Shown here in pieces: positions 7,460-23,607 of a stretch of DNA of 62,002 bases. This stretch comes from Planctomycetaceae bacterium. GTDB lineage: Bacteria > Planctomycetota > Phycisphaerae > Sedimentisphaerales > UBA12454. Made by a program: the position numbers and the translations under genes. The stretch's first letter is position 1, and every line of letters begins with the position of its first letter. Below the pieces are notes generated by a model. It was not told the DNA's origin, ran no database searches, and saw nothing but the letters and a program-made list of their open reading frames with translations. The stretch covers positions 1-62,002 of the forward strand of contig JAJFVK010000025.1 of the NCBI GenBank assembly GCA_021371795.1, written 5' to 3'.

Positions 7460-8638
7460 TTACTTTGCAGCTAATTTTTCAAGTTCCTTTGAGCAAAGGA
7501 ACAACGCTCGCGGAAGATGGAAACAGCCCTTCCATTTGCCTCCTTTAGACTGAAAGAGAACCTGCCCCTGTCTGCTAAGATAGCCGAACCATTCGCCGAA
7601 TTCCTTGTCGGCGAAATGTTCCCATGAGTACTCGTGTACTTTTTCAAACCACTGCCAATATTCTTCTTTGCCGGTACTCGAATATGCCATAACAAGTGCA
7701 ACCAGTGTTTCAAGATGAACCCACCAGAGTTTCTGGTCCCATTCGAGCTGCTGCGGCGGGTGGCCATCAATGTCGAGAAAGTAAAATATCCCGCCATATT
7801 TTTCGTCCCAGCCATACTTTAGAATGGTAAGCATTATATCGCAGCATTTGTTTATCAGAGCAGTATCATTTCTGCGTCTGCCTATATCCATCAAAAACCA
7901 CATCGCTTCTATGCCGTGGCCGGGATTGATTAGTCTGCCTTCAAAACAATCTATTCTCTTGCCATCCGGAGCAACATTTTCCAAAAGCAGGCCAGCCTGT
8001 TTGTCATAGAATAGTTCCGTTACTTCCTTAACACACATATCTAATGCTGAATTAAGCTGCTGCGGAGTCAAAAGCCATTCCATCTCCAGCGACAAATTCG
8101 CCAATATCATCGGAACCGCCATCGAAATCATCGGCCTTGTGCCGGCAACAGCTTTTGTATATTGGCCTTTTGGATTTGATTTGCGATTAAAGATATGCTG
8201 ATAAGTATTTAAGGCTATTGTTTTGGATTTTTTATCGCCGGTCGCCAAGGCATATTGGCTGAACGCCATCGCCGCAAAACAATCGCTGAAAATATTATAT
8301 GGAGCAATGAGTGGCTTTCCTGTTCTATCAAGCGAGAAATACCAGTCGCCATTTTTATCCATTCCGTTTTTTGCGAGGAAATCAACTCCGAGTTTCGCTA
8401 TGTCGAGCCATTGTTCGCTTTTCTGGAATCGGTTAAACAAAGCGGAAAACATCCAGACCTGTCGGCATTGCAGCCAGATAAATTTATCCGTATCATAAAC
8501 ATTTCCCTCCCTGTCCAGACAGGTAAAGTATCCGCCGTATTCCTTATCAAGCGAATTGTTAGTCCAAAAATCCAAAACATTGTTCAACAGGGCATTTTGA
8601 TAAAATGCCGCAAGACCTGAAAAATTCTTCCTTGTCAT
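7460..8638 (-). CDS. AGE-family sugar 2-epimerase (N-acylglucosamine 2-epimerase-like)
   Basis: A 392-residue cytoplasmic (alpha/alpha)6-barrel enzyme. The AGE/RnBP family interconverts N-acetylglucosamine and N-acetylmannosamine, while relatives act on cellobiose or mannobiose. The C-terminal stretch [15 protein letters not shown], then [16 protein letters not shown], follows the RnBP/GlcNAc 2-epimerase pattern rather than the cellobiose epimerase pattern. [15 protein letters not shown] and [13 protein letters not shown] carry the conserved active-site histidines. The start has GGAG 7 bases upstream. It lies between the alpha-galactosidase and symporter genes and is probably cotranscribed. 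This suggests intracellular processing of an amino sugar or manno-configured sugar; the precise substrate is open. Confidence 0.78.
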
Positions 8639-10868: not shown

Positions 10869-11789
10869 CTATATGCCGCTTATATCTATTCCAAAATGTT
10901 CACAATATCTCTTGTAAAGATTGCGAGCTGACGGCCAGGTTGAATATGGACTCATAAAATGCGAAAATTCAAATGTAATACACTTATCAACGCCGGCCTG
11001 GGCGGCAAAATCCATCTTCCAAAGCATCTTGCGAAAATCAATCGGAGGAAATTTGAACGGCATATCTCTATCAAAAGATTCAACATTTGACCAGGCAGTC
11101 ATCTGATATTTGTTTATCAGTTCTTTGTTTACACAGATATAATCTTTCAATTCCTCATATTCGACGTGTCCATCCTGAAAAGCTACAATATCAACGCTCT
11201 TGTGGAGAACCGAAAGAATCTCGTCCCATTCTTTGCGATGCTGCTCAATGCTTACCGCATCATCTCCGACAGCTTTCTTTCCCCACATATAAGGCGACAT
11301 TATAACAGGCAGGCCGTTGCTGACTGCCTTGCATCGGTCGGCAACTTTTTTCAGCGACTCCGGCACATCGCCATATCGCCTGCCAAACTCGTGTGCCATA
11401 TACCAGCCGGCGAACGCGCTGCATTTGCCGTACTTCTGCCAAATTTCATCGACCAGCTTAAGATTTATATCAACCTCATCCTGCAATCGCCCATCTCGCC
11501 AAAAAACATTGGAATCATAAGTACCAAAGAAAAGTTTCATCTTATGCTTTTCAGCAAGTTCAAGAAACATTTGTGCAAGGTCGCAATATACCGGAAGTAT
11601 TTTAATTCCCTTTTTCAAAACGCGCGAATCGAAAATGGCATTACGCCCCCAGCCGCTGCGTATGATAATTACAGTATCGATACCCATCCGCTTCATAGCT
11701 TCAAAATCTTTTCCCCATTCTTCCGGCCCCCAGTTATTCGATGGGATGTCACAGGTAATCTCGTCTAAAAAAGTGCCTGTTATTTTCAT
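10869..11789 (-). CDS. DUF4434-family TIM-barrel protein (putative glycoside hydrolase), copy A
   Basis: About 306 residues, with no signal peptide visible from the chosen start. It belongs to the DUF4434 group of glycosidase-like TIM barrels and is close to the gene at 16445. Both start with ITGTFLDEIT, both have NNWGPEEW and DTVIIIRSG, and both end near HFMSPYSTWPSARNLY or FMSPYSCWPSAGNLY. Conserved carboxylates in all window paralogues are the Glu of FAGWYMAHE (Glu134) and the Glu of WSNVESF (Glu237), positions that could serve as acid/base and nucleophile. The start at 11789 matches the paralogue's start and has GAGAGG just upstream. It is part of the operon. Enzymatic activity is inferred, not shown. 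Confidence 0.75.
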   Translation of the reverse strand: MKITGTFLDEITCDIPSNNWGPEEWGKDFEAMKRMGIDTVIIIRSGWGRNAIFDSRVLKKGIKILPVYCDLAQMFLELAEKHKMKLFFGTYDSNVFWRDGRLQDEVDINLKLVDEIWQKYGKCSAFAGWYMAHEFGRRYGDVPESLKKVADRCKAVSNGLPVIMSPYMWGKKAVGDDAVSIEQHRKEWDEILSVLHKSVDIVAFQDGHVEYEELKDYICVNKELINKYQMTAWSNVESFDRDMPFKFPPIDFRKMLWKMDFAAQAGVDKCITFEFSHFMSPYSTWPSARNLYKRYCEHFGIDISGI

Positions 11790-11829
11790 CATACCTCTCT
11801 GCTTAAACAACGGATTATACCACTCACTA

Positions 11830-13641: not shown

Positions 13642-14952
13642 CTAAGCCCGCAAAAGACTGCTTGTCTCGATAAATTTTTTATAATCATTAAAGAGATCCA
13701 CCGCCGGCTGGCCGCCAAGTTTGATTTGAGCCCACGGATGAGTCATAAGCCCCGGATATTGATAACATAATATTTTTTCAAAATTGTCGAACCGGCTAAA
13801 ATCGCTGACAACCCCCGCAATAGGACGAGGATAAAGCGCCTGGTCTTCGGCAAAAAGAAAGACCTCCATATCCAGCCACAATTGCGAATTAGAATCATTA
13901 CAAAGTCTTCTAAGTAAAGCCGCTGCCTGCTCTCCTGTCATATCATCTTTTGGCATTCTATGGAATCCAAAAGGACAAACAATATCAAGGTTTTCAAGCA
14001 GCTGCGGCCAATATTTTAAACCTTCTACAATATTATAACAATTTGGCGCAAGCATAATCGGTTTGTCAGGGCATAATTTGTTCACATATTTTTTGAACTC
14101 TTTGAAGAAAAGCACAATCTCTTTTCGGCGACTTTCATTATCTCCGAGATTTCCAAAAACTTCCTCGGAAATATACCAGCCATAGAAAGATTTATGATGA
14201 CCATAAAGTTCCCATAATTCTTTTGCTGTATTTTTGTGCCATTCGAGAGAACCCTTTGTGAAATCAAACCAGGCATACATTCCAACGCCGAGAAATACGC
14301 AAGAACCTGTTTTGTCGGCTTCGTCAAGTATCGCCTCAATAGGGTTGGCCGCGGTTATCTGCACTCTTTCGGGATACAATTTTGACGGATAATAGGCCTT
14401 GCCTTTATATCCCTGTTTTTCTATTTTATGTTTACCAACATATTCCTGATTCCTAAATACTTCCTGAACGACGATAATCTTCATACCAATTTCGTCCATA
14501 CCGCGTACAATTTCACGCCAATGGTCGTCATTCAGCATTTTTATCTCATCCTTCCAATACTTCCCCTCCTTGTCGCTCCAATGAGTTATGCCTGCCCATG
14601 CCCCGTCAATTTGCCTGAGCGAAATAGTTTCTGAAGAAACAATTTCAATATCGGATTCGGCTGTAATTATCTCATCTTCAATATCTGCCTGTGCGATTAT
14701 CCTGTGTCTACCGATATAACCTAATGCCGGCCACATAAATCGCACCAGGAAGTATTCTCCCGCTTTAACGGTCTCGGTTTTATTATAGAGCAGATTTTTC
14801 TGTTCCGGCTTATCAAGATAAATTGCTATATCAATCTTTTTTGCCTGATGGCAGTCATTCAGAATTGCAGCTCTTATATCGAGTTTAATTCTATCAGAAC
14901 ACGGACTGGGCGGAACAATCGTCATATTAAAATTATTTTTTAAGATAGACAT
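13642..14952 (-). CDS. DUF4434-type TIM-barrel protein with N-terminal beta-sandwich, copy B
   Basis: A 436-residue protein. Residues about 5-110 look like an Ig-like beta-sandwich (TVKAGEYFLVRF, HRIIAQADIEDEIITAES). Residues about 115-430 form a DUF4434-type barrel: FYGWYISEEVFGN and LWLDMEVFLF align with the conserved Glu motifs of the neighbours, and LAPNCYN and DIVCPFGFHR align with their SPY and FQDG positions. No signal peptide is evident, so it is either cytoplasmic or its export signal is not recognisable. AAGG stands 3 bases before the ATG, which is close. It is 14 bases from the preceding gene and clearly cotranscribed. A role in glycan cleavage is inferred. Confidence 0.68.
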   Translation of the reverse strand: MSILKNNFNMTIVPPSPCSDRIKLDIRAAILNDCHQAKKIDIAIYLDKPEQKNLLYNKTETVKAGEYFLVRFMWPALGYIGRHRIIAQADIEDEIITAESDIEIVSSETISLRQIDGAWAGITHWSDKEGKYWKDEIKMLNDDHWREIVRGMDEIGMKIIVVQEVFRNQEYVGKHKIEKQGYKGKAYYPSKLYPERVQITAANPIEAILDEADKTGSCVFLGVGMYAWFDFTKGSLEWHKNTAKELWELYGHHKSFYGWYISEEVFGNLGDNESRRKEIVLFFKEFKKYVNKLCPDKPIMLAPNCYNIVEGLKYWPQLLENLDIVCPFGFHRMPKDDMTGEQAAALLRRLCNDSNSQLWLDMEVFLFAEDQALYPRPIAGVVSDFSRFDNFEKILCYQYPGLMTHPWAQIKLGGQPAVDLFNDYKKFIETSSLLRA

Positions 14953-14966
14953 AGACCTTCATGCCT

Positions 14967-16418
14967 TCACTGAAGCAGTAATTTCTTAACTGTATTGGCA
15001 GGAACAATATTAATTTCGCCTTTCGGCGCCAAACGACAATTGGGGTCATCTTTAATGCCCTCTATGTGTACTGTTACCTCTTTTACGCCTGAGAGGTTGC
15101 CATCAAGCACTATCTTAAGCAAATTGCCGTCAACTTCGGCGGATTTGACAGCAAAAATTTTACCATCATCTACCGTAATCATCTTTCTGCCGGCAACTAT
15201 TTTACTGCAATCTTTTGATATTCGCTTGTCAAAACACAATTCTACAGCGTCTTTCGATATCAAGCTAATTTTACAAAGTTGTGGAGGTCTTTCGTAAACT
15301 GCCCACCTAAGGGAGAATTCATAATAAGTCGTACTATTAAGCTTTAATTGGTCACAGGTATCATAAAAAAGTTTCTGCCAATCCAATGACCTTCGAGCAA
15401 CTAACTGCGAACCAAAATCCGCCTGAAAACCTATCGGCATATTCGGAGAAGCATTTTTAATTTCATCAAAAAAAGGTTTATAAATCAATGGATAATCACT
15501 TTTTAAATCAGGATTTAACCAATCCGGGGCATGAGTCTGAATGAAGTGCATATCCGGTTTTACTTGCTTAATCATTGACGAAATTTCGTTACCTTCCAAT
15601 TCGCGAAGTTTTTCGACACCGTTAGGTATGCTGATCCCCAGCGTCCAGCTTGCAACAAATACTCCCGGACATTTTTCTCTTACTCCGTCTTTCCCATTGA
15701 CTACCTCATCATAAAAATCATTAACTGTCTTTATGCGAAACACTACAAGATCATTATAAACTTTGGGAATTTTTTTATAATAATTTGGTTGATTGTGGTC
15801 AACAAATTCAGGAAAAACTGTATTATTCGTGGCCTTTTTAAATTCAGCCTGAAATGCCGGAGAAATATCCCCATAAAGCACCTTGCTTCGTTCAAGACCA
15901 TCAGCAACAGGGTACATAGCCTCGGCAAAAGTAAACCCATCAAACCCATTTTTGTTTATCAGTTTAACTATGCGATGTTTCATCCAAACGGCATAATCCT
16001 TATGCACAAAAGACATGAATTTGTATTCATCCATCTCATGGCTCGTGTACTCCATCCGATATTTTTCCCAGCCATTCGGACGTTCTTCTTCAGGCAAATA
16101 AGCTCCTGAAGCGATAACCAGTACTGCTACAGGAATATCTCTTTTCTGCAACTCAGCTATAATATCCTTTCTCGCAATGCTGTCAGCTGTCACAAAATAA
16201 TAAACGCCATCATAACCATTCGCCACAATTTCTTCCGCAACACTTCGTGCGCTGCGGTCTTTATACATATCAAAACTAAAATCAACGGTGACCGTCCTTC
16301 CGCAAAGCAGCTTTTTTGCTCTCGGCGTAAGTTCGGTTCCATAAGCCGGTACGAGAAATGTCGTCAGTAAAAACAAATTTACAAATATCGCGCGCTTCGT
16401 ACAACTTTTATTTTGCAT
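14967..16418 (-). CDS. Secreted TIM-barrel-like protein of unnamed family, homologous to the second half of the 17440-20853 fusion
   Basis: A 483-residue protein. Residues 1-27 are a signal peptide. Residues about 40-375 are probably a TIM barrel and 376-483 a small beta domain. It matches residues about 545-900 and 1045-1140 of the fusion protein: FDGFTFAEAMYPV with FDAITFAEPMYPV, HFIQTHAPDWLNPDL with HYFQTHWPDWCDPDL, and VDGNLLKIVLD with VDGNLLKLLLN. The Glu of TFAE (Glu166) and the Asp of PDW are shared and are candidate catalytic residues. I do not recognise a named family. Its place between DUF4434 genes and the fusion suggests a partner glycosidase. AAGGAG lies 6 bases before the start. 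Confidence 0.62.
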   Translation of the reverse strand: MQNKSCTKRAIFVNLFLLTTFLVPAYGTELTPRAKKLLCGRTVTVDFSFDMYKDRSARSVAEEIVANGYDGVYYFVTADSIARKDIIAELQKRDIPVAVLVIASGAYLPEEERPNGWEKYRMEYTSHEMDEYKFMSFVHKDYAVWMKHRIVKLINKNGFDGFTFAEAMYPVADGLERSKVLYGDISPAFQAEFKKATNNTVFPEFVDHNQPNYYKKIPKVYNDLVVFRIKTVNDFYDEVVNGKDGVREKCPGVFVASWTLGISIPNGVEKLRELEGNEISSMIKQVKPDMHFIQTHAPDWLNPDLKSDYPLIYKPFFDEIKNASPNMPIGFQADFGSQLVARRSLDWQKLFYDTCDQLKLNSTTYYEFSLRWAVYERPPQLCKISLISKDAVELCFDKRISKDCSKIVAGRKMITVDDGKIFAVKSAEVDGNLLKIVLDGNLSGVKEVTVHIEGIKDDPNCRLAPKGEINIVPANTVKKLLLQ

Positions 16419-16444
16419 AGCAAACTCCTTTTCTCACAATTTTC

Positions 16445-17371
16445 CTATTCTCTAACCAACTTTTTAATGCCTAAATAATCACAATATCTGTCATACAGAT
16501 TGCCCGCGCTCGGCCAGCACGAATACGGACTCATAAAACTCGAAGACGTAAAGGTAATCACCTTTTCGACTTTGGCTTTGCTGGCCGCGTCCAATTTCCA
16601 CCTAAGTTTTCGCCAGTCAATAGGAGGAAATTTAAAAGGTACTTCCCTGTCAAACGTCTCAAGATTACTCCACACTCGCATACCATATTTCGTAAGCAGT
16701 TTTTTGTTGGTCAGGATATAGTCCGGAAGTTCATGATAATCAACATTACCATCCTGAAAAGCAACGATATTTATAGAATCCTTAAGAACAGAAAGCATAT
16801 AGTCCCAGTCCTTTTCGTGCTGCTGAAGAGTAATCGGGGTTTCGAATTGCTTTTTTCCTGCGATGTAAGGCGAGATAACCGTCGGCAGTTTATCGCCGGT
16901 TATTCCCCTGCAATGCTCTGCGATTTCTTTAATACATCGTACGCCGTCTTCATCCTTAACAGAAAGCTCCTGCGTGATATACCAGCCCTTGAATGCCTTA
17001 AATTTACCGTATCGTTTCCAGGCTTCATCAATATACTCTTTATTAATATCGATAATTTTCTGATGTCCATTGTTTCGCAACTTGCCGTAATCATCATAAG
17101 TGCCAAAATACAACGCAATGCCGTTTTCTTCAGACAGTTTCAGGAATAATTCACACAAATCGTCATAAACCGGCATCATTGAGCCAATATATTTTTCAAG
17201 GACCTTTGACGGAAAAATACACTTGTTCTCAAAACCGGAGCGAATAATAATAACGGTATCAATACCGATATACTTCATCGCCCGAAAATCCTTAGCCCAT
17301 TCTTCCGGCCCCCAGTTATTCGACATAATATCAACAGTAATCTCGTCAAGAAATGTTCCCGTTATACGCAT
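16445..17371 (-). CDS. DUF4434-family TIM-barrel protein (putative glycoside hydrolase), copy C
   Basis: A 308-residue protein without a visible signal peptide. It is closely related to the gene at 10869, with the same length, the same ends and the same motifs. KGWYITQE (Glu135) and WSNLETF (Glu238) hold the shared glutamates; SPYIAGKK, FQDGNVDYHELPDYI and KFPPIDWRKLRWKLD are also shared. Two related copies in one operon imply either different linkages or different cellular places. It is 26 bases from the next gene downstream and 68 bases from the fusion gene upstream. Function is inferred from the DUF4434 fold class; no biochemical activity is implied by the sequence alone. Confidence 0.75.
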   Translation of the reverse strand: MRITGTFLDEITVDIMSNNWGPEEWAKDFRAMKYIGIDTVIIIRSGFENKCIFPSKVLEKYIGSMMPVYDDLCELFLKLSEENGIALYFGTYDDYGKLRNNGHQKIIDINKEYIDEAWKRYGKFKAFKGWYITQELSVKDEDGVRCIKEIAEHCRGITGDKLPTVISPYIAGKKQFETPITLQQHEKDWDYMLSVLKDSINIVAFQDGNVDYHELPDYILTNKKLLTKYGMRVWSNLETFDREVPFKFPPIDWRKLRWKLDAASKAKVEKVITFTSSSFMSPYSCWPSAGNLYDRYCDYLGIKKLVRE

Positions 17372-17439
17372 AAATACCCTTTATAATTTGACAATAGATT
17401 CTATTTTAATTTTCTATTCATATCAATTTTAAACTATAA

Positions 17440-20400
17440 CTATTCCACTCTTAGTTCGACTACGGTTCCGGATGGAATCGTGTTAATGCTACCTATGGCA
17501 ATATTAGAGTTCGTCCACCTTGCAGATTGGTCACTGCTTATCCCGCCAATATCAACCAAAAGCGTATCACCAGGCTGAATCGGTTGATTGAGCAACAGTT
17601 TGAGCAGATTGCCGTCAACACATGCATACGAAACGCCGCACGTAATATTTGGATATTTAACAATATTTCTCTGTATCATTACGTCCGCGCTGTTACTATC
17701 TATTCTCTGGTCAAACTCAAGATTTAGCGTTTTGGAATCAGTTAGATTATGTTGAACTCCGTTGACTTCAATAATTTCAGGAAGATAAACATTCGCCGTT
17801 TCATATCTAAGCACATTTAAATTAATAGTATTAACTTCAGCGTTTGGTGTGAGGTGAAGGATTATATCCACATACGCAGGCTTGCCCTGAGCACTAGGTG
17901 CCCACTCAACCCAGTCCGTATCAGCCATATTTGCTCCCACAAGGATACCATTCGCAAGATCATTGCCATTGTCGGGCCTGCCGACATAAGGCGGAGTCAG
18001 TGGAGAAATAGTATAGGTAAAACCGCCAGTTCGGCCGTTGACCATGATCTCAGAAATGAAAAACCAATTTGTGGTAACAGCTCCCTTGGCATATACCCTC
18101 AAACGCAAATTCCCACTGCTGTCAGCACATTCGTTTATCTCGGTGCCCCGAAGACCGGCAGACTGATTAGCTATATTGCTCGAACATATAAACTGCGAAA
18201 TTCGTTTCAATTGTGGAACAGCTTCATAAATATCGGCTCGAATATCAAAGCAGTAATAAGTTGAGTTTGAAACATTGCCGGCCTCACAGGCAGTCAGAAA
18301 ATCACTATAATACTGATTTCTGCGACGCATAGAATCAGAACTGCCTATATCATCCTGAACTCCTATCGCAACATCCGGCATAGCACGCCAACTCTCTTTA
18401 AAATTGTCTATATACTGATAAACATGCTCCGGGCTAAGGTCAGGATCGCACCAGTCCGGCCAGTGAGTTTGAAAATAATGTATATCAGGCTTGGATTTCT
18501 TTACTATGCTGTAGGCGTCGTTTCCTTCCCATTCAGGCAAAAGCTGCACGCCGCCATTCGCCAATTTTGAACAGGCCAGAGACCATGTAACCACCAATGT
18601 ATCAGGAGCTGCCTGACGTAATCCACTAACGCCATTGATTATTTCGTCAAAGTAATTTGTAATCGAATCAATCCTGTGCTGTACGAGTTTTTGATAAAGA
18701 GCTGTATTGGTCTTGAAATAATTTGGGCTTACAAAATTCGTAAAGTCCGGGAAATTATTTTCGCCGGTATCGGCTTTAAATATATCCTGATAAGCCTGCG
18801 ATACATCGGCATACACAACCGGAGTTTTAGTAACGCCGTTATAAACAGGGTACATCGGTTCGGCAAATGTGATCGCGTCAAAACCATAAGTATTACAAAG
18901 TCCGACCGCACGCTGCTTCATCCACTGACGATACCCATCGTGTATAAAAGAAATTTGCGAACCACCATTTGACACATTCAGAAATTCCATCAACCATGCT
19001 TCCCAGTCCGATGGCAAAGTGCCATAGATACTACTGGCGAAAAGCATCAGCCCTGCCCCGATACCTCTTTCGTGCAACGCATCTACCATTCCAGCCTTAA
19101 ACGTATCATTGTAAGCCGGTATAATAAACACAGACTCTACCCCATTAACAGAAAGTTCAGAAGCTATGCTTTCAGCACTTCTGCCCTGCATATAAATCGA
19201 ATCCTGTGTAATTTGAACGCCTCTCAACTTATAAAATTGATTCCTGTATGTCTCTTTTGGGATTCTCTGCCAGCCTAAATTTTCTGCTAATGCGGCAAAA
19301 GCCTTAAAGTCAAACCGTATTCCATCAGAATTGCTTTCCAGCCAATTGTGTGCCAGAATCGCAATGTCTTGCATATCGACTTTAGAATCTAAATTATAGT
19401 CTCCTGTCGGAGCGCCTCTAAAAACACTTAGCTCCGAACACATCAGCCAATTTGATGACTGAAATTTGAATTTTATATACCTGGCCGAGATATGATTCTG
19501 CAGAAAATCAAAATACACATTAAGGGAATCGCCGGAAGCGGGAAACGTTGAGAGTTGAGTAACATAGTCAAAAGTCAGGTTATCTTTGGAAGCATATACC
19601 TGCACAAAAACAGGCAGAACAGCGCCCCAGCTTGTCCGCTTCATTATCGTTGCCGCAAAACCATACCTTGCGGAGATATTTTCCCGCAAATCTATTGTAA
19701 TTGAAACATCCTGGGAGGTGCTGTGATAAAATCCAACCTGCGTATCCATTTCAAAGTCAATCTGCGAATCCGTCAGTTCGTGCTTTATGTCTGGATAGCT
19801 CGTAGATGGCGATTCACTTAAAGTATAGGTCTTATTAAGTGATACCAGATCAAGTCCTTTGTTGTACGCCAGCATTTTCACATAAAAGTTTTGCCGGTCC
19901 GTGGTCCTGCTCTCACCCCTCATTCTCTGTGTCGGCGTAATATAAAACCACTCCCACGTTACAATTTTATCAACATATTCTTTATTAATATCAATCTGAA
20001 TCTTTGCATCGCTAAAAGTTTTGGCCGACCAATCCGATTGATTAAAAGTCTCAAGGTCGTTCCAGAACTGAACTCCATTATTATGGCAGGCCACCGCGAG
20101 ATTCCTGAAATACGGAATGATTTGTTCAGGCTGCCTGTTGGTATCGGCACCCATCCCGTCCTGAAACATTAGTATATCAAAATCAACCTGGCTAAGAGTA
20201 TAATTCCACCATGTATAACAAGCCTCTGCTCCTGCATTTATATTATAAACATATGGAGCAGTCGCCACAGGCTTGCCAGGTGTAATGGATTTTAAATGAT
20301 TAATAACCGGATTAAGCAAAGTATTTATTAATTGCGTACGATTTCCGCCCGTTCCCCATGCTGAAAATTGAATTTCCTCTGTCATGTACCAGCCGGAAAA

Positions 20401-20853
20401 AGACGTATGTGGGCTTACCAATGGCAATAGCTCGTCAGCACAGGCGATATCATTCGCGGCAAGAGAGGCTAATATCGTACCATTGCCAATGCTTAACCAC
20501 CATCTTTCATCGCCAACAAGCCCAACAAAACAATTCACATTATAAATATCACAGGCGTTTAGAATCATTATCAGTCCATTATCTGTAACGCTGGTCACAA
20601 ATGACAAAGAACTTGGATAATGAGCTTCACCATCTGCTATTGAGGGCGTAACAATAACAGTATCCAGCCCGGCCCTGCTCATCTGCTCAATTTCCTCGTT
20701 CCAGTCCGCCTGACTGTAACCGGCCATATATGGGCTTATTTGGATAAACGCTCCGCTAAGTGGTTTGGCTATCGCTATCTCGGTTAGTAGCAAAAAACCG
20801 AAAACCATCAACCGAAAAAGATTTTTATATTTTCTAAATATTACCGTTTTCAT
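17440..20853 (-). CDS. Secreted fusion: DUF4434 barrel, discoidin, dockerin-like, second barrel, discoidin and beta domain
   Basis: About 1137 residues. A signal peptide (to about residue 29) is followed by a DUF4434-type barrel (about 35-335, with FSGWYMTEE and FWNDLETF), a discoidin-like domain (about 340-480) and a dockerin-like segment (GDYNLDSKVDMQDIAILAHN, about 483-528). Next comes a second barrel (about 540-900) like the gene at 14967 (FDAITFAEPMYPV, YFQTHWPDW), then a discoidin-like module (VGRPDNGNDLANG, ADTDWVEWAP, about 940-1045) and a C-terminal beta domain (VDGNLLKLLLN). The same barrels occur as separate genes next to it. The ATG at 20853 is preferred to a TTG three codons upstream. 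It is the first gene of the operon and follows a terminator. A bifunctional extracellular glycan-active protein is the best reading. Confidence 0.72.
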   Translation of the reverse strand: MKTVIFRKYKNLFRLMVFGFLLLTEIAIAKPLSGAFIQISPYMAGYSQADWNEEIEQMSRAGLDTVIVTPSIADGEAHYPSSLSFVTSVTDNGLIMILNACDIYNVNCFVGLVGDERWWLSIGNGTILASLAANDIACADELLPLVSPHTSFSGWYMTEEIQFSAWGTGGNRTQLINTLLNPVINHLKSITPGKPVATAPYVYNINAGAEACYTWWNYTLSQVDFDILMFQDGMGADTNRQPEQIIPYFRNLAVACHNNGVQFWNDLETFNQSDWSAKTFSDAKIQIDINKEYVDKIVTWEWFYITPTQRMRGESRTTDRQNFYVKMLAYNKGLDLVSLNKTYTLSESPSTSYPDIKHELTDSQIDFEMDTQVGFYHSTSQDVSITIDLRENISARYGFAATIMKRTSWGAVLPVFVQVYASKDNLTFDYVTQLSTFPASGDSLNVYFDFLQNHISARYIKFKFQSSNWLMCSELSVFRGAPTGDYNLDSKVDMQDIAILAHNWLESNSDGIRFDFKAFAALAENLGWQRIPKETYRNQFYKLRGVQITQDSIYMQGRSAESIASELSVNGVESVFIIPAYNDTFKAGMVDALHERGIGAGLMLFASSIYGTLPSDWEAWLMEFLNVSNGGSQISFIHDGYRQWMKQRAVGLCNTYGFDAITFAEPMYPVYNGVTKTPVVYADVSQAYQDIFKADTGENNFPDFTNFVSPNYFKTNTALYQKLVQHRIDSITNYFDEIINGVSGLRQAAPDTLVVTWSLACSKLANGGVQLLPEWEGNDAYSIVKKSKPDIHYFQTHWPDWCDPDLSPEHVYQYIDNFKESWRAMPDVAIGVQDDIGSSDSMRRRNQYYSDFLTACEAGNVSNSTYYCFDIRADIYEAVPQLKRISQFICSSNIANQSAGLRGTEINECADSSGNLRLRVYAKGAVTTNWFFISEIMVNGRTGGFTYTISPLTPPYVGRPDNGNDLANGILVGANMADTDWVEWAPSAQGKPAYVDIILHLTPNAEVNTINLNVLRYETANVYLPEIIEVNGVQHNLTDSKTLNLEFDQRIDSNSADVMIQRNIVKYPNITCGVSYACVDGNLLKLLLNQPIQPGDTLLVDIGGISSDQSARWTNSNIAIGSINTIPSGTVVELRVE

Positions 20854-20997: not shown

Positions 20998-23607
20998 TTA
21001 ATACATCCATTCCAGAGCAAATTTCGCAAAATCTTCGAAGTTAACTATTTGATCATTGCCAACAATATCAGCCGAAAGGCCTTCACCTATTTGCAGCCAC
21101 TGGGCAGACATCATTCTGACATCTCGCATATCCACGACACCATCATCATTAATGTCACCAGTAAATACGTTGAATTTAAATTCTGCAAGATAGAGCCAAT
21201 TAGCAGGATCATCATTCATACAATGCACTTTCAGCTTAACATATCGAGCATTCGTCTGTGGTAAATCAAATGTAGTAGTAAATACCGTCTGTTTGACTGA
21301 ATTGTCGTCAAATACAGCGCCAGTATTCTGGAATGATGTAAAGTTCGTTCCCTCTGCATTTGTGTTGAAAGCAACGTCTAAACCACCAGGAACGCGTACG
21401 CCGCTTGGAGGCGTTGAAGGCCATGCACAATATGTAATAGCAACATTTTTAACCTTTATACTGGATTTCAAATCAAAGGTTATTATAGCATACGCTGGTT
21501 TAGGAGTACCCTGATTCGGAGCCCATTCAACCCAATCGGAATCAGCATAAGCGCCTACGATGATTGGAGTATATGCATTGGTTAAATCACCAAATTTAAG
21601 ACATTGAAGGAAAAAGTCTGTTGCAACGTCACCCTGTGCACCTGTACTACCACCATATACAGGAGTAGTGGAATCAATAACGTAGGTCATCTGCGGTCTG
21701 TTTGTTATAATAATTTCACCAATTGCAAGAGTTCCAACGCCATCCCCGACAATTTCAACCTTTACATACTGACCTGTTTGCTTAGCGAAAGTCATTTTAT
21801 CTGTTCTGCCTCTACCAGCAGTTCCTGTTGCATACCAACCATCCGCATCAGTCACAAGTATCGGGGTACCATAAGTTTCTCCATCATCACTGAAGCTCAG
21901 TTTAACTAATTGAGGTGTGCTAATAACAGTTGTTACTCCACTTATAGTCGCATTACCTGTGATATAATTCATTGAAATATTTGAAAATTCTTTAACTTTG
22001 CCATAGTTGACATACAGAATCGCACTGCCATAATGCTGCAAAGAAGCATTGTCAAAAAATACCCAATCAGTAGTTGTATTGGCATAACTAATTGCACCAT
22101 TCATAAGATTTGTTTGATTCAAATCCTTATGATTGCCAAGTGGTTTAGTAGTCGGATCAATAGTGTAGCGTGGGAAACGTGATTCAGGTGGACGATTAAA
22201 TTCTACCTCAGACAACAAGAACCATTTAGCTGGGTCACTATTAAGGCAATTTATACGCATTTTGACATACCGTACGGATGTAACGTTGACTTCAAGATGA
22301 GTCTTTGCAATGAAGCCTGTTCCTGAGAATGCCTCATAATTTGTCGGAGTCGAAAAACTGATGCCATCGGTGCTGTATGAAATGTCAAAACTGCCTGGAT
22401 ATAGGGAAACTTCAAAACCAGTATGCAGAATATCAATTGTATCAACATCTTTAAGACATTTAAAATCGAAAGTTATGTCAGCATAAGCAGGTCCGCTCGT
22501 TTCACTTGGAGCCCATTCCACCCAATCCTCAGCAAAGCCATCTTCGCCAACGTAAAAACTTCCTTCGAGATATCCATTACACAAATCATTACCTGTATTA
22601 TCACTGCCTGCCCAACTCGCAGTTGGCGTTTCTGCGGATATTACATAAGATGCACCATATTTGCCAAGTATCGGAATAGAAAAATTGCTCGGAAGAATAT
22701 CAATAAAATTCGGGTCAGTACTTGATGCGGTAACTGCAACCGTCTCAACACTGAATGCTGAAGAATTGATATCTACAACAACTTCCCGCCTTATATTCCA
22801 ATTTGAATTTGTGAAAACAATATTAACAGGATTTCCGAATCCAGCACCAAAATTTAGTGTAACATTAGGGACAATGGTAAAATTTACATCCGCAGAAGGC
22901 TGCCGAGTCATAACCATCGACAATTTTACAGTACCACCTGCACATCCATAAGGCCCGTTAACATCAACATCAACAATATCATTAATCGTAAGTACACGAT
23001 CGAACCCTATATCATCGATCCAAAGCTGGGCAGCTTGCGGAATGTTTGCGTCTATAGTATAGTATAATAAAACTCTGCGCATAGAAGTTATGTCCCCATC
23101 ACCATTGAAAGGAGCAATAATTTTATGCCACTGGCCATCGTTGGGGACAGAAACCCAGGTGTCCTTCGCGATATCGTAGCCTTGATCCCAAGTATCTCGC
23201 ACAGCTAAACAACAAGTTTTTATTGCAGAAGACGTTGGCAATTTAATCATTGCCGTTGCAACATTGTATGCACTAACATCAACTGGATTTGCCTGGTCAT
23301 CGTATCTTATTTGCACACCCCACTGTGCGCTGCACGGATCGCCTTCATAACCATTCCTCAAGGGTGTCTCAAGTCTCATAGACTGATTGTCTGCGTATTT
23401 TTCTGTATCATCGGCGTAAACGGACAAATAAGGATTGCCCGGCTCTCCGTGTATCCAAATCCACGTTATATCGCCCGGGTTGCCAGTACCCTCGTCTCCC
23501 GGAACATAAGATTCAAAATCTTCATAAAGAAGGGGCTCCACCGCTGTTGCCCAGCCAGCTAAAACCAAGCTCAACAACATCACAAATACTATTTTGCAAT
23601 CTTTCAT
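20998..23607 (-). CDS. Large secreted glycan-binding protein: CBM-like, three discoidin-like modules, dockerin
   Basis: An 869-residue protein. Residues 1-22 are a signal peptide. Residues about 24-210 are a jelly-roll CBM-like domain (LLYEDFESYVPGDEGTGNPG). A beta-rich linker (about 215-315) is followed by three discoidin-like modules near 318-485, 490-640 and 645-805. Two of these carry the local signature DTDWVEWAP or its variants EDWVEWAPSE and SDWVEWAPNQ. Residues 812-869 form a two-repeat dockerin-like domain (GDINDDGVVDMRDVRMMSAQ, DQIVNFEDFAKFALEW). No catalytic domain is visible, so it is likely a binding or scaffold-attached protein. It has an AGGAGGT site 4 bases before ATG and its own terminator. 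The ligand is unknown. Confidence 0.8.
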   Translation of the reverse strand: MKDCKIVFVMLLSLVLAGWATAVEPLLYEDFESYVPGDEGTGNPGDITWIWIHGEPGNPYLSVYADDTEKYADNQSMRLETPLRNGYEGDPCSAQWGVQIRYDDQANPVDVSAYNVATAMIKLPTSSAIKTCCLAVRDTWDQGYDIAKDTWVSVPNDGQWHKIIAPFNGDGDITSMRRVLLYYTIDANIPQAAQLWIDDIGFDRVLTINDIVDVDVNGPYGCAGGTVKLSMVMTRQPSADVNFTIVPNVTLNFGAGFGNPVNIVFTNSNWNIRREVVVDINSSAFSVETVAVTASSTDPNFIDILPSNFSIPILGKYGASYVISAETPTASWAGSDNTGNDLCNGYLEGSFYVGEDGFAEDWVEWAPSETSGPAYADITFDFKCLKDVDTIDILHTGFEVSLYPGSFDISYSTDGISFSTPTNYEAFSGTGFIAKTHLEVNVTSVRYVKMRINCLNSDPAKWFLLSEVEFNRPPESRFPRYTIDPTTKPLGNHKDLNQTNLMNGAISYANTTTDWVFFDNASLQHYGSAILYVNYGKVKEFSNISMNYITGNATISGVTTVISTPQLVKLSFSDDGETYGTPILVTDADGWYATGTAGRGRTDKMTFAKQTGQYVKVEIVGDGVGTLAIGEIIITNRPQMTYVIDSTTPVYGGSTGAQGDVATDFFLQCLKFGDLTNAYTPIIVGAYADSDWVEWAPNQGTPKPAYAIITFDLKSSIKVKNVAITYCAWPSTPPSGVRVPGGLDVAFNTNAEGTNFTSFQNTGAVFDDNSVKQTVFTTTFDLPQTNARYVKLKVHCMNDDPANWLYLAEFKFNVFTGDINDDGVVDMRDVRMMSAQWLQIGEGLSADIVGNDQIVNFEDFAKFALEWMY

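Follow-up and report, generated by a model that had tools for sequence, protein, structure and literature searches.

The window analysed here, a 62,002-nt stretch of contig JAJFVK010000025.1 to which positions refer unless another locus is named, encodes a secreted fusion protein in which a barrel of the DUF4434 family is joined to a second barrel. This second barrel and its homologues, collectively termed barrel2, are a candidate for a small, undescribed family of secreted glycoside-cleaving enzymes with a triosephosphate isomerase (TIM) barrel fold, as structural models and conserved residues suggest, and the family is absent from Pfam, NCBIfam and the sequences of the Protein Data Bank (PDB). 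The genes and domains that carry this finding are the following:

17440-20853, minus strand: fusion gene, 1137 aa, ATG start
19852-20766, minus strand: DUF4434 barrel of the fusion, residues 30-334; PF14488 138 bits
19429-19731, minus strand: first F5/8 type C (carbohydrate-binding-like) domain of the fusion; PF00754 E 4e-4, under the curated cut-off; beta-rich in the model
19267-19404, minus strand: dockerin-like EF-hand segment of the fusion (GDYNLDSKVDMQDIAILAHNW), recognised by eye; one clear and one degenerate repeat
18223-19242, minus strand: barrel2 of the fusion, residues 538-877
17772-18174, minus strand: inserted F5/8-like segment between barrel2 and the beta domain of the fusion
17443-17771, minus strand: C-terminal beta domain of the fusion's barrel2 unit
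14967-16418, minus strand: free barrel2 protein, 483 aa, with a signal peptide; barrel at residues 38-376, beta domain at 381-483
16445-17371, minus strand: free DUF4434 protein of the short, cytosolic-type clade; PF14488 226.5 bits

From its N terminus, the fusion comprises a signal peptide, the DUF4434 barrel, the F5/8 type C domain, the dockerin-like segment, barrel2, the inserted F5/8-like segment and the C-terminal beta domain. The dockerin-like segment, which forms helices at residues 494-506 and 516-525 in the fusion model, gave no match in a Pfam search. The free and fused barrels share 37% identity over 335 residues (E 2e-73). In the fused copy an insert separates the barrel from the beta domain, and the beta domains therefore align as a separate match (E 6e-09). 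An earlier sequence-only reading of this DNA had proposed that 17440-20853 joins a DUF4434-type barrel to a second barrel and that the latter, with its beta domain, also forms the protein at 14967. These alignments and the PF14488 score bear out both proposals, and the three genes named by that reading are all present on the minus strand.

The fusion is real, and not a product of frameshift or assembly, since its domain order recurs at two other loci. One is a second fusion in the window's own genome (L016 5816-8794, 992 aa), which runs DUF4434, F5/8 type C, dockerin-like segment, barrel2 and beta domain; the other is an orthologous fusion with the same domain order (L027 9003-12419) in G127, a complete genome from another family of the order Sedimentisphaerales, which also has a short DUF4434 gene, a free barrel2 gene and a symporter gene alongside. 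The inserted F5/8-like segment is present in the fusions of the window and G127 and not in the fusion of contig C9. In the barrel2 tree, the fused domains form one clade (100/100), and the free proteins of the window and G127 form another (100/100). The fused barrel2 of one genome is orthologous to that of the other, and the same holds for the free proteins; therefore, both forms are old and both have been kept, having either predated the split of the two lineages or moved together by transfer.

Individual copies show further rearrangements. In the F5/8-like insert (17772-18174, and likewise in the L027 9003-12419 fusion), a C-terminal motif (NWFFISEIMVNG) precedes the N-terminal part, in an arrangement resembling a circular permutation, and the middle part of the F5/8 model is missing. 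A third barrel2 copy of the window's genome (L017 6751-8027, contig C24) stops near residue 170 and continues out of frame into a long-type DUF4434 gene without a start, as if some 1.5 kb had been lost; this truncation may reflect decay or assembly collapse, the two being indistinguishable. In genome G728, a barrel2 gene adjoining a long-type DUF4434 gene (L085 7786-8574) has lost some 220 internal residues, in frame, from the region bounded by strands 3 and 7.

Barrel2 had no family match in Pfam or NCBIfam, and its profiles retrieved no relative from PDB sequences, in agreement with the statement of the sequence-only reading that the second barrel belongs to no family that can be named. Viral contigs yielded no relative. 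An AlphaFold2 model of the free protein, built with six sequences (predicted local distance difference test, pLDDT, 81; predicted template modelling score, pTM, 0.82), consists of a TIM barrel and a C-terminal beta domain, so that the second domain is predicted to be a barrel, as that reading had proposed. Its eight strands span residues 40-45, 71-75, 97-102, 161-165, 254-261, 290-295, 329-333 and 362-365. The top match of this model in the PDB is PgaB of family GH153 (Z 23.1, root-mean-square deviation (rmsd) 3.5, 301 residues, 13% identity), followed by Cwp19 of GHL10 (Z 22.1, rmsd 3.2, 280 residues, 12% identity), a tie within the error of the method, and by GH14 and GH42 structures (Z ~20.7). 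In the separately modelled fusion, which is weaker overall (pLDDT 65), the second barrel again has these two as its matches, with Z 20.3 for Cwp19 and 19.5 for PgaB. GH156 sialidases, whose catalytic residues are Asp14 and His134 (PMC6811678), rank 13th in the Foldseek list.

Several established families were considered and rejected as homes for barrel2. PF02638 (GHL10) matched one of the 17 members at E 0.0077 only, and GH31 matches appeared weakly in two of the 17 (E 0.0058); both signals were put down to the shared barrel. PF14883 (PgaB) gave no match among the 17 members at E <= 1, and membership in GH153 fails the sequence-profile test, leaving a match in fold alone, a fold common to several families. 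PF14883 itself was detected in 2 of 294 Planctomycetota genomes, and none of these matches is barrel2.

Conservation in the family is highest among the polar residues that sit where strands 4, 6, 7 and 8 end on their C-terminal side. Across the 17 members, which span two phyla, the invariant positions include Glu166 at strand 4, His291, Gln294, His296, Asp299 and Trp300 at strand 6, Gln332 and Asp334 at strand 7, and Tyr366 and Arg371 at strand 8; Glu166 lies at the end of its strand and Asp334 just after its own. Enzymes of clan GH-A and GH14 have their catalytic positions at strands 4 and 7. Because Glu166 and Asp334 match this usage, they are the likely catalytic pair of barrel2, with Glu166 predicted as the general acid and Asp334 as the base or nucleophile. 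The corresponding codons are as follows:

15921-15923, minus strand: Glu166 of free barrel2
15417-15419, minus strand: Asp334 of free barrel2
18859-18861, minus strand: Glu665 of fused barrel2, equivalent of Glu166
18349-18351, minus strand: Asp835 of fused barrel2, equivalent of Asp334

Barrel2 is rare, with 2 positive genomes among 392 sampled Planctomycetota, 3 among 161 of the order Sedimentisphaerales and 9 among 197 of the class to which Victivallis vadensis belongs. A contig search with a three-row barrel2 alignment returned nothing, its patterns being poor, and a six-row alignment matched V. vadensis and a metagenome-assembled genome of Sedimentisphaerales. DUF4434 is present in all three barrel2 genomes of the order versus 12 of 161 overall (p = 3e-4); in the Victivallis class the figures are six of nine versus 81 of 197 (p = 0.11, not significant), and co-occurrence is uninformative there because DUF4434 is so common. 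A same-strand DUF4434 neighbour occurs at 7 of 16 barrel2 loci (the window, C9, C24, G127, V. vadensis, G729 and G728), which a rough binomial at 3% per locus puts at ~1e-7 for loci that are not fully independent, and six of these seven loci also contain a symporter gene. In both V. vadensis and G729 the genes run AXE1 esterase, long DUF4434, symporter, short DUF4434 and barrel2, and the last two overlap in V. vadensis. To judge from the recurrence of this gene set in other bacteria, barrel2 and DUF4434 probably degrade the same polysaccharide, one that would contain amino sugars.

The fused DUF4434 domain has 4h41 (BT_0435) as its nearest solved structure (Z 27.1, rmsd 2.9, 276 residues); next come GH164 beta-mannosidase and GH5 mannanases (Z 18-20), along with GH42 enzymes. 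Its Glu160 and Glu268 stand at the ends of barrel strands 4 and 7 by strand count and are invariant in nine DUF4434 proteins; on this model, the domain is probably a retaining enzyme of the clan GH-A type. The positions concerned are listed here together with those of the free protein:

20374-20376, minus strand: Glu160, predicted acid/base of fused DUF4434
20050-20052, minus strand: Glu268, predicted nucleophile of fused DUF4434
16967-16969, minus strand: Glu135 of free DUF4434 (16445)
16658-16660, minus strand: Glu238 of free DUF4434 (16445)

The cluster holds four DUF4434 domains (in the fusion and in the genes starting at 16445, 13642 and 10869), all above the PF14488 cut-off of 30 bits; the genes at 13642-14952 and 10869-11810 had been missed by the sequence-only reading. 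The protein at 16445 is close to the solved relative 4h41 (E 2e-79) and shares ~24% identity with the fused domain over 243 residues. In the DUF4434 tree, whose long branches make the deep joins uncertain, the fused form is a deep clade of its own, distinct from both the short and the long free proteins. The possibility that 16445 is a split-off half of the fusion was rejected on this placement: the gene does encode a free DUF4434, as had been read from the sequence, but not an unfused version of the domain in the fusion. By eye, the short and long free proteins start directly with the domain and have no signal peptide, whereas the fusion has one; these free proteins are probably cytosolic. 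Since the 16445 protein belongs to its own clade and lacks a signal peptide, it cannot simply stand in for the fused domain beside the secreted free barrel. For the same reasons, the two forms would serve different stages, the fused DUF4434 probably outside the cell on the polymer and the free ones inside on imported oligosaccharides.

Every gene from 17440 down to 5617 lies on the minus strand, with gaps mostly of 13-84 bp and one of 238 bp. Besides the genes listed above, this cluster contains:

13642-14952, minus strand: DUF4434 protein of the long clade with an N-terminal beta extension, without signal peptide; PF14488 127.9 bits
11830-13557, minus strand: ADP-ribosylglycohydrolase-fold protein; PF03747 E 1.7e-21
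10869-11810, minus strand: second short DUF4434 protein; PF14488 244.4 bits
8660-10630, minus strand: GH27-type alpha-galactosidase with NPCBM; PF16499, PF08305, PF17801
7460-8638, minus strand: N-acetylglucosamine (GlcNAc) 2-epimerase; PF07221 E 6e-80, 269.5 bits
5617-7446, minus strand: sodium:solute symporter; PF00474

A terminator-like hairpin with a T run (~20960-20925, minus strand), recognised by eye, lies between the fusion and the upstream F5/8-domain gene at 20998-23607; its loop exceeds the length allowed in the terminator scan, in which promoter- and terminator-like sites occurred at chance level. Because the hairpin parts these two genes, the fusion may be the first gene of the unit.

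DUF4434 is not the only partner of barrel2. In V. vadensis and four relatives (five Victivallis-class genomes), barrel2 stands behind a PF07221 N-acylglucosamine 2-epimerase domain; this domain is diverged and sits in an apparently secreted protein, the fusions form a clade of their own (100/100), and three of the five genomes have no DUF4434 match. The barrel2-DUF4434 pairing is therefore frequent, not obligate. The sequence-only reading had argued from the fusion that the two activities act on one substrate and may be an undescribed glycan-cleaving pair, and had named a lack of co-occurrence elsewhere as grounds for its refutation. Linkage at 7 of 16 loci, presence of both families in all three barrel2 genomes of the order and a single operon in V. 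vadensis uphold the association, and the pair is indeed conserved and undescribed. The argument is weakened by the distinct DUF4434 clades and the epimerase partner, statistical co-occurrence does not extend to the Victivallis class, the pair is not exclusive, and the common substrate is something we infer.

Evidence on the nature of that substrate comes from several partners. The free epimerase (7460-8638) matches 6f04 at E 6e-184 (615 bits, 387 residues) and 2gz6 at E 1e-181, and cellobiose 2-epimerases at only ~1e-20. An SGSH-type sulfatase adjoins the G127 fusion, and AXE1 acetyl esterases occur in the V. vadensis loci. Within the same order, DUF4434 is fused to a GH20 hexosaminidase (G531) and to a NAGLU/GH67N-like protein (G398), two fusions that bear on its substrate (L044 6147-8720 and L043 27-3650). 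As to the structural relatives, PgaB cleaves deacetylated poly-beta-1,6-GlcNAc (PMC5933820) and Cwp19 is a lytic transglycosylase that cleaves peptidoglycan (PMC6016235). N-acetylhexosamine is indicated by the type of epimerase, by the fusions of DUF4434 to GH20 and NAGLU-like proteins, by the PgaB/Cwp19 folds and by the sulfatase; we place an amino-sugar glycan a little short of an even chance and regard a mannan-like substrate as a minor possibility.

Other neighbourhoods of these families were also recorded. Short DUF4434 genes elsewhere (L018 5791-7737, L044 2031-3002 and L037 3836-5485) lie beside phosphodiester glycosidase-type (NAGPA) proteins, symporters and oxidoreductases in a different type of cluster, the NAGPA assignment having been tested against Pfam in L018 only. 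Proteins of the URO-D family, in many cases resembling corrinoid methyltransferases, are found repeatedly next to DUF4434 or barrel2 (L016 1165-3462, L019 5799-6920 and L027 13378-14700; the scan covered one of two L016 genes), which hints at an O-methylated sugar. A protein of 470-510 aa lies next to or near long DUF4434 genes in three genomes (L045 7502-8911, L046 7326-8858 and L039 8874-10343); it has no clear Pfam family, and the single one scanned had a weak C5-epimerase match.

The explanation to which we give an even chance is that barrel2 is a glycoside-cleaving family of PgaB/Cwp19 fold that acts on a single polysaccharide together with DUF4434 enzymes. Extracellular attack on the polymer would fall to the secreted fusion, whose two active sites, in the DUF4434 barrel and in barrel2, would be tethered by binding domains, and the free secreted barrel2 would trim it further. 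The products would be imported by the symporter, the cytosolic short and long DUF4434 enzymes would finish the oligosaccharides, and the GlcNAc 2-epimerase would channel the released N-acetylhexosamine. The analysis itself establishes the genes, their domain order, the predicted fold, the conserved residues, the clades and a gene order conserved across two phyla; catalysis, the order of these steps and an amino-sugar-containing substrate we infer from this material. A wider proposal, held tentatively and at clearly less than an even chance, is that barrel2 is the first member of a new family of glycoside hydrolases, with Glu166 and Asp334 as its catalytic pair on the PgaB/Cwp19 fold. It would then be the hub of a modular system, joined to DUF4434 in Planctomycetota and to a 2-epimerase domain in the Victivallis class, for an amino-sugar glycan outside known pathways.

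A number of observations weigh against this explanation. Comparison of the barrel2 profile with seven PgaB sequences gave P 0.013 and a probability of 3% (an earlier one with two sequences gave P 0.051). Five free barrel2 loci, four of them in the Victivallis class and one in the order, lack a same-strand DUF4434 gene nearby, two of these five having an opposite-strand copy 2-4 kb away. No characterised activity was found for barrel2 or DUF4434 proteins, no paper was found on DUF4434, PF14488 or BT0435, and 4h41, the only solved DUF4434, was automatically named 'putative alpha-L-fucosidase'. The fused epimerase domain of V. vadensis is about equally close to cellobiose 2-epimerases and to its best N-acylglucosamine 2-epimerase matches, and the GH27 gene and AXE1 esterases are also compatible with a hemicellulose such as galactomannan.

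This GH27 gene, in the window operon, and the AXE1 esterases, in the V. vadensis loci, lend weight to an alternative that we consider unlikely, in which both barrels are glycosidases for an acetylated galacto(gluco)mannan-like hemicellulose and DUF4434 is a mannanase- or mannosidase-like enzyme of clan GH-A. The GH164 beta-mannosidase and GH5 mannanases that follow 4h41 among DUF4434 folds fit this view; however, GH42 and GH14 structures reach similar scores, so that fold rank gives no specificity, the epimerase of the operon groups with GlcNAc 2-epimerases and not with the cellobiose/mannobiose type, and a sulfatase adjoins the G127 fusion. A distinctly unlikely alternative is that cleavage by barrel2 is non-hydrolytic or relies on a single acid, in the manner of a lytic transglycosylase or anhydro-forming enzyme, on a peptidoglycan- or exopolysaccharide-like polymer. 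Cwp19 is among the two closest folds and is reported to act in this way, and GH153 appears to depend on a single catalytic Asp, located at strand 4 (PMC5933820). The weak profile comparison with seven PgaB sequences given above keeps the strands in the same order over strands 1 to 5 and places Glu166 at that site, on the FHDD motif. Against it stands Asp334, invariant in 17 of 17 members at the position of the second carboxylate in clan GH-A and GH14. Very unlikely, in our view, is a non-catalytic, carbohydrate-binding barrel that holds the polymer for the DUF4434 or epimerase domain: fusion to two different catalytic domains would suit such a role, and many GHL-type barrels have no proven activity, but conservation peaks in the polar residues at the strand ends, and several genomes encode barrel2 as a free-standing secreted protein.

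The conserved, undescribed enzyme pair or trio is real. Barrel2 may well represent a new glycoside hydrolase family, though one whose fold is familiar and whose function would be of an ordinary kind. These genes offer a testable entry into two uncharacterised barrel families together, one of which, DUF4434, is widespread (as in the 81 Victivallis-class genomes) and yet has one solved structure and no function that we found in the literature. V. vadensis is a human gut bacterium available in culture, so that its conserved operon is open to growth, transcript and gene tests, and the epimerase, GH20 and NAGLU fusions narrow the candidate substrates to N-acetylhexosamine-containing glycans.

Among known systems, GH153/PF14883 (GHL13; the PgaB C-terminal domain, 4p7l and 6au1) is the best structural match of barrel2, a TIM barrel being common to both, and the weak profile comparison indicates that fold is all they share. 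Like the barrel2 fusion as predicted, PgaB is a secreted protein with two catalytic domains, and its catalytic Asp in Bordetella, D474, lies at the end of strand 4 (PMC5933820). Unlike PgaB, barrel2 has Glu in place of the Asp pair, comes without a deacetylase domain or pga operon and has other partners. GHL10/PF02638 Cwp19 (5oq2, 5oq3) has a catalytic-domain fold in common with barrel2 in two independent models (Z 22.1 and 20.3); unlike Cwp19, barrel2 is without cell-wall-binding repeats. The first barrel of the fusion and three free cluster proteins belong to DUF4434/PF14488 with BT_0435 (4h41), and within the N-acylglucosamine 2-epimerase family, PF07221, the free gene of the window operon is close to solved GlcNAc 2-epimerases, whereas the domain fused to barrel2 has diverged.

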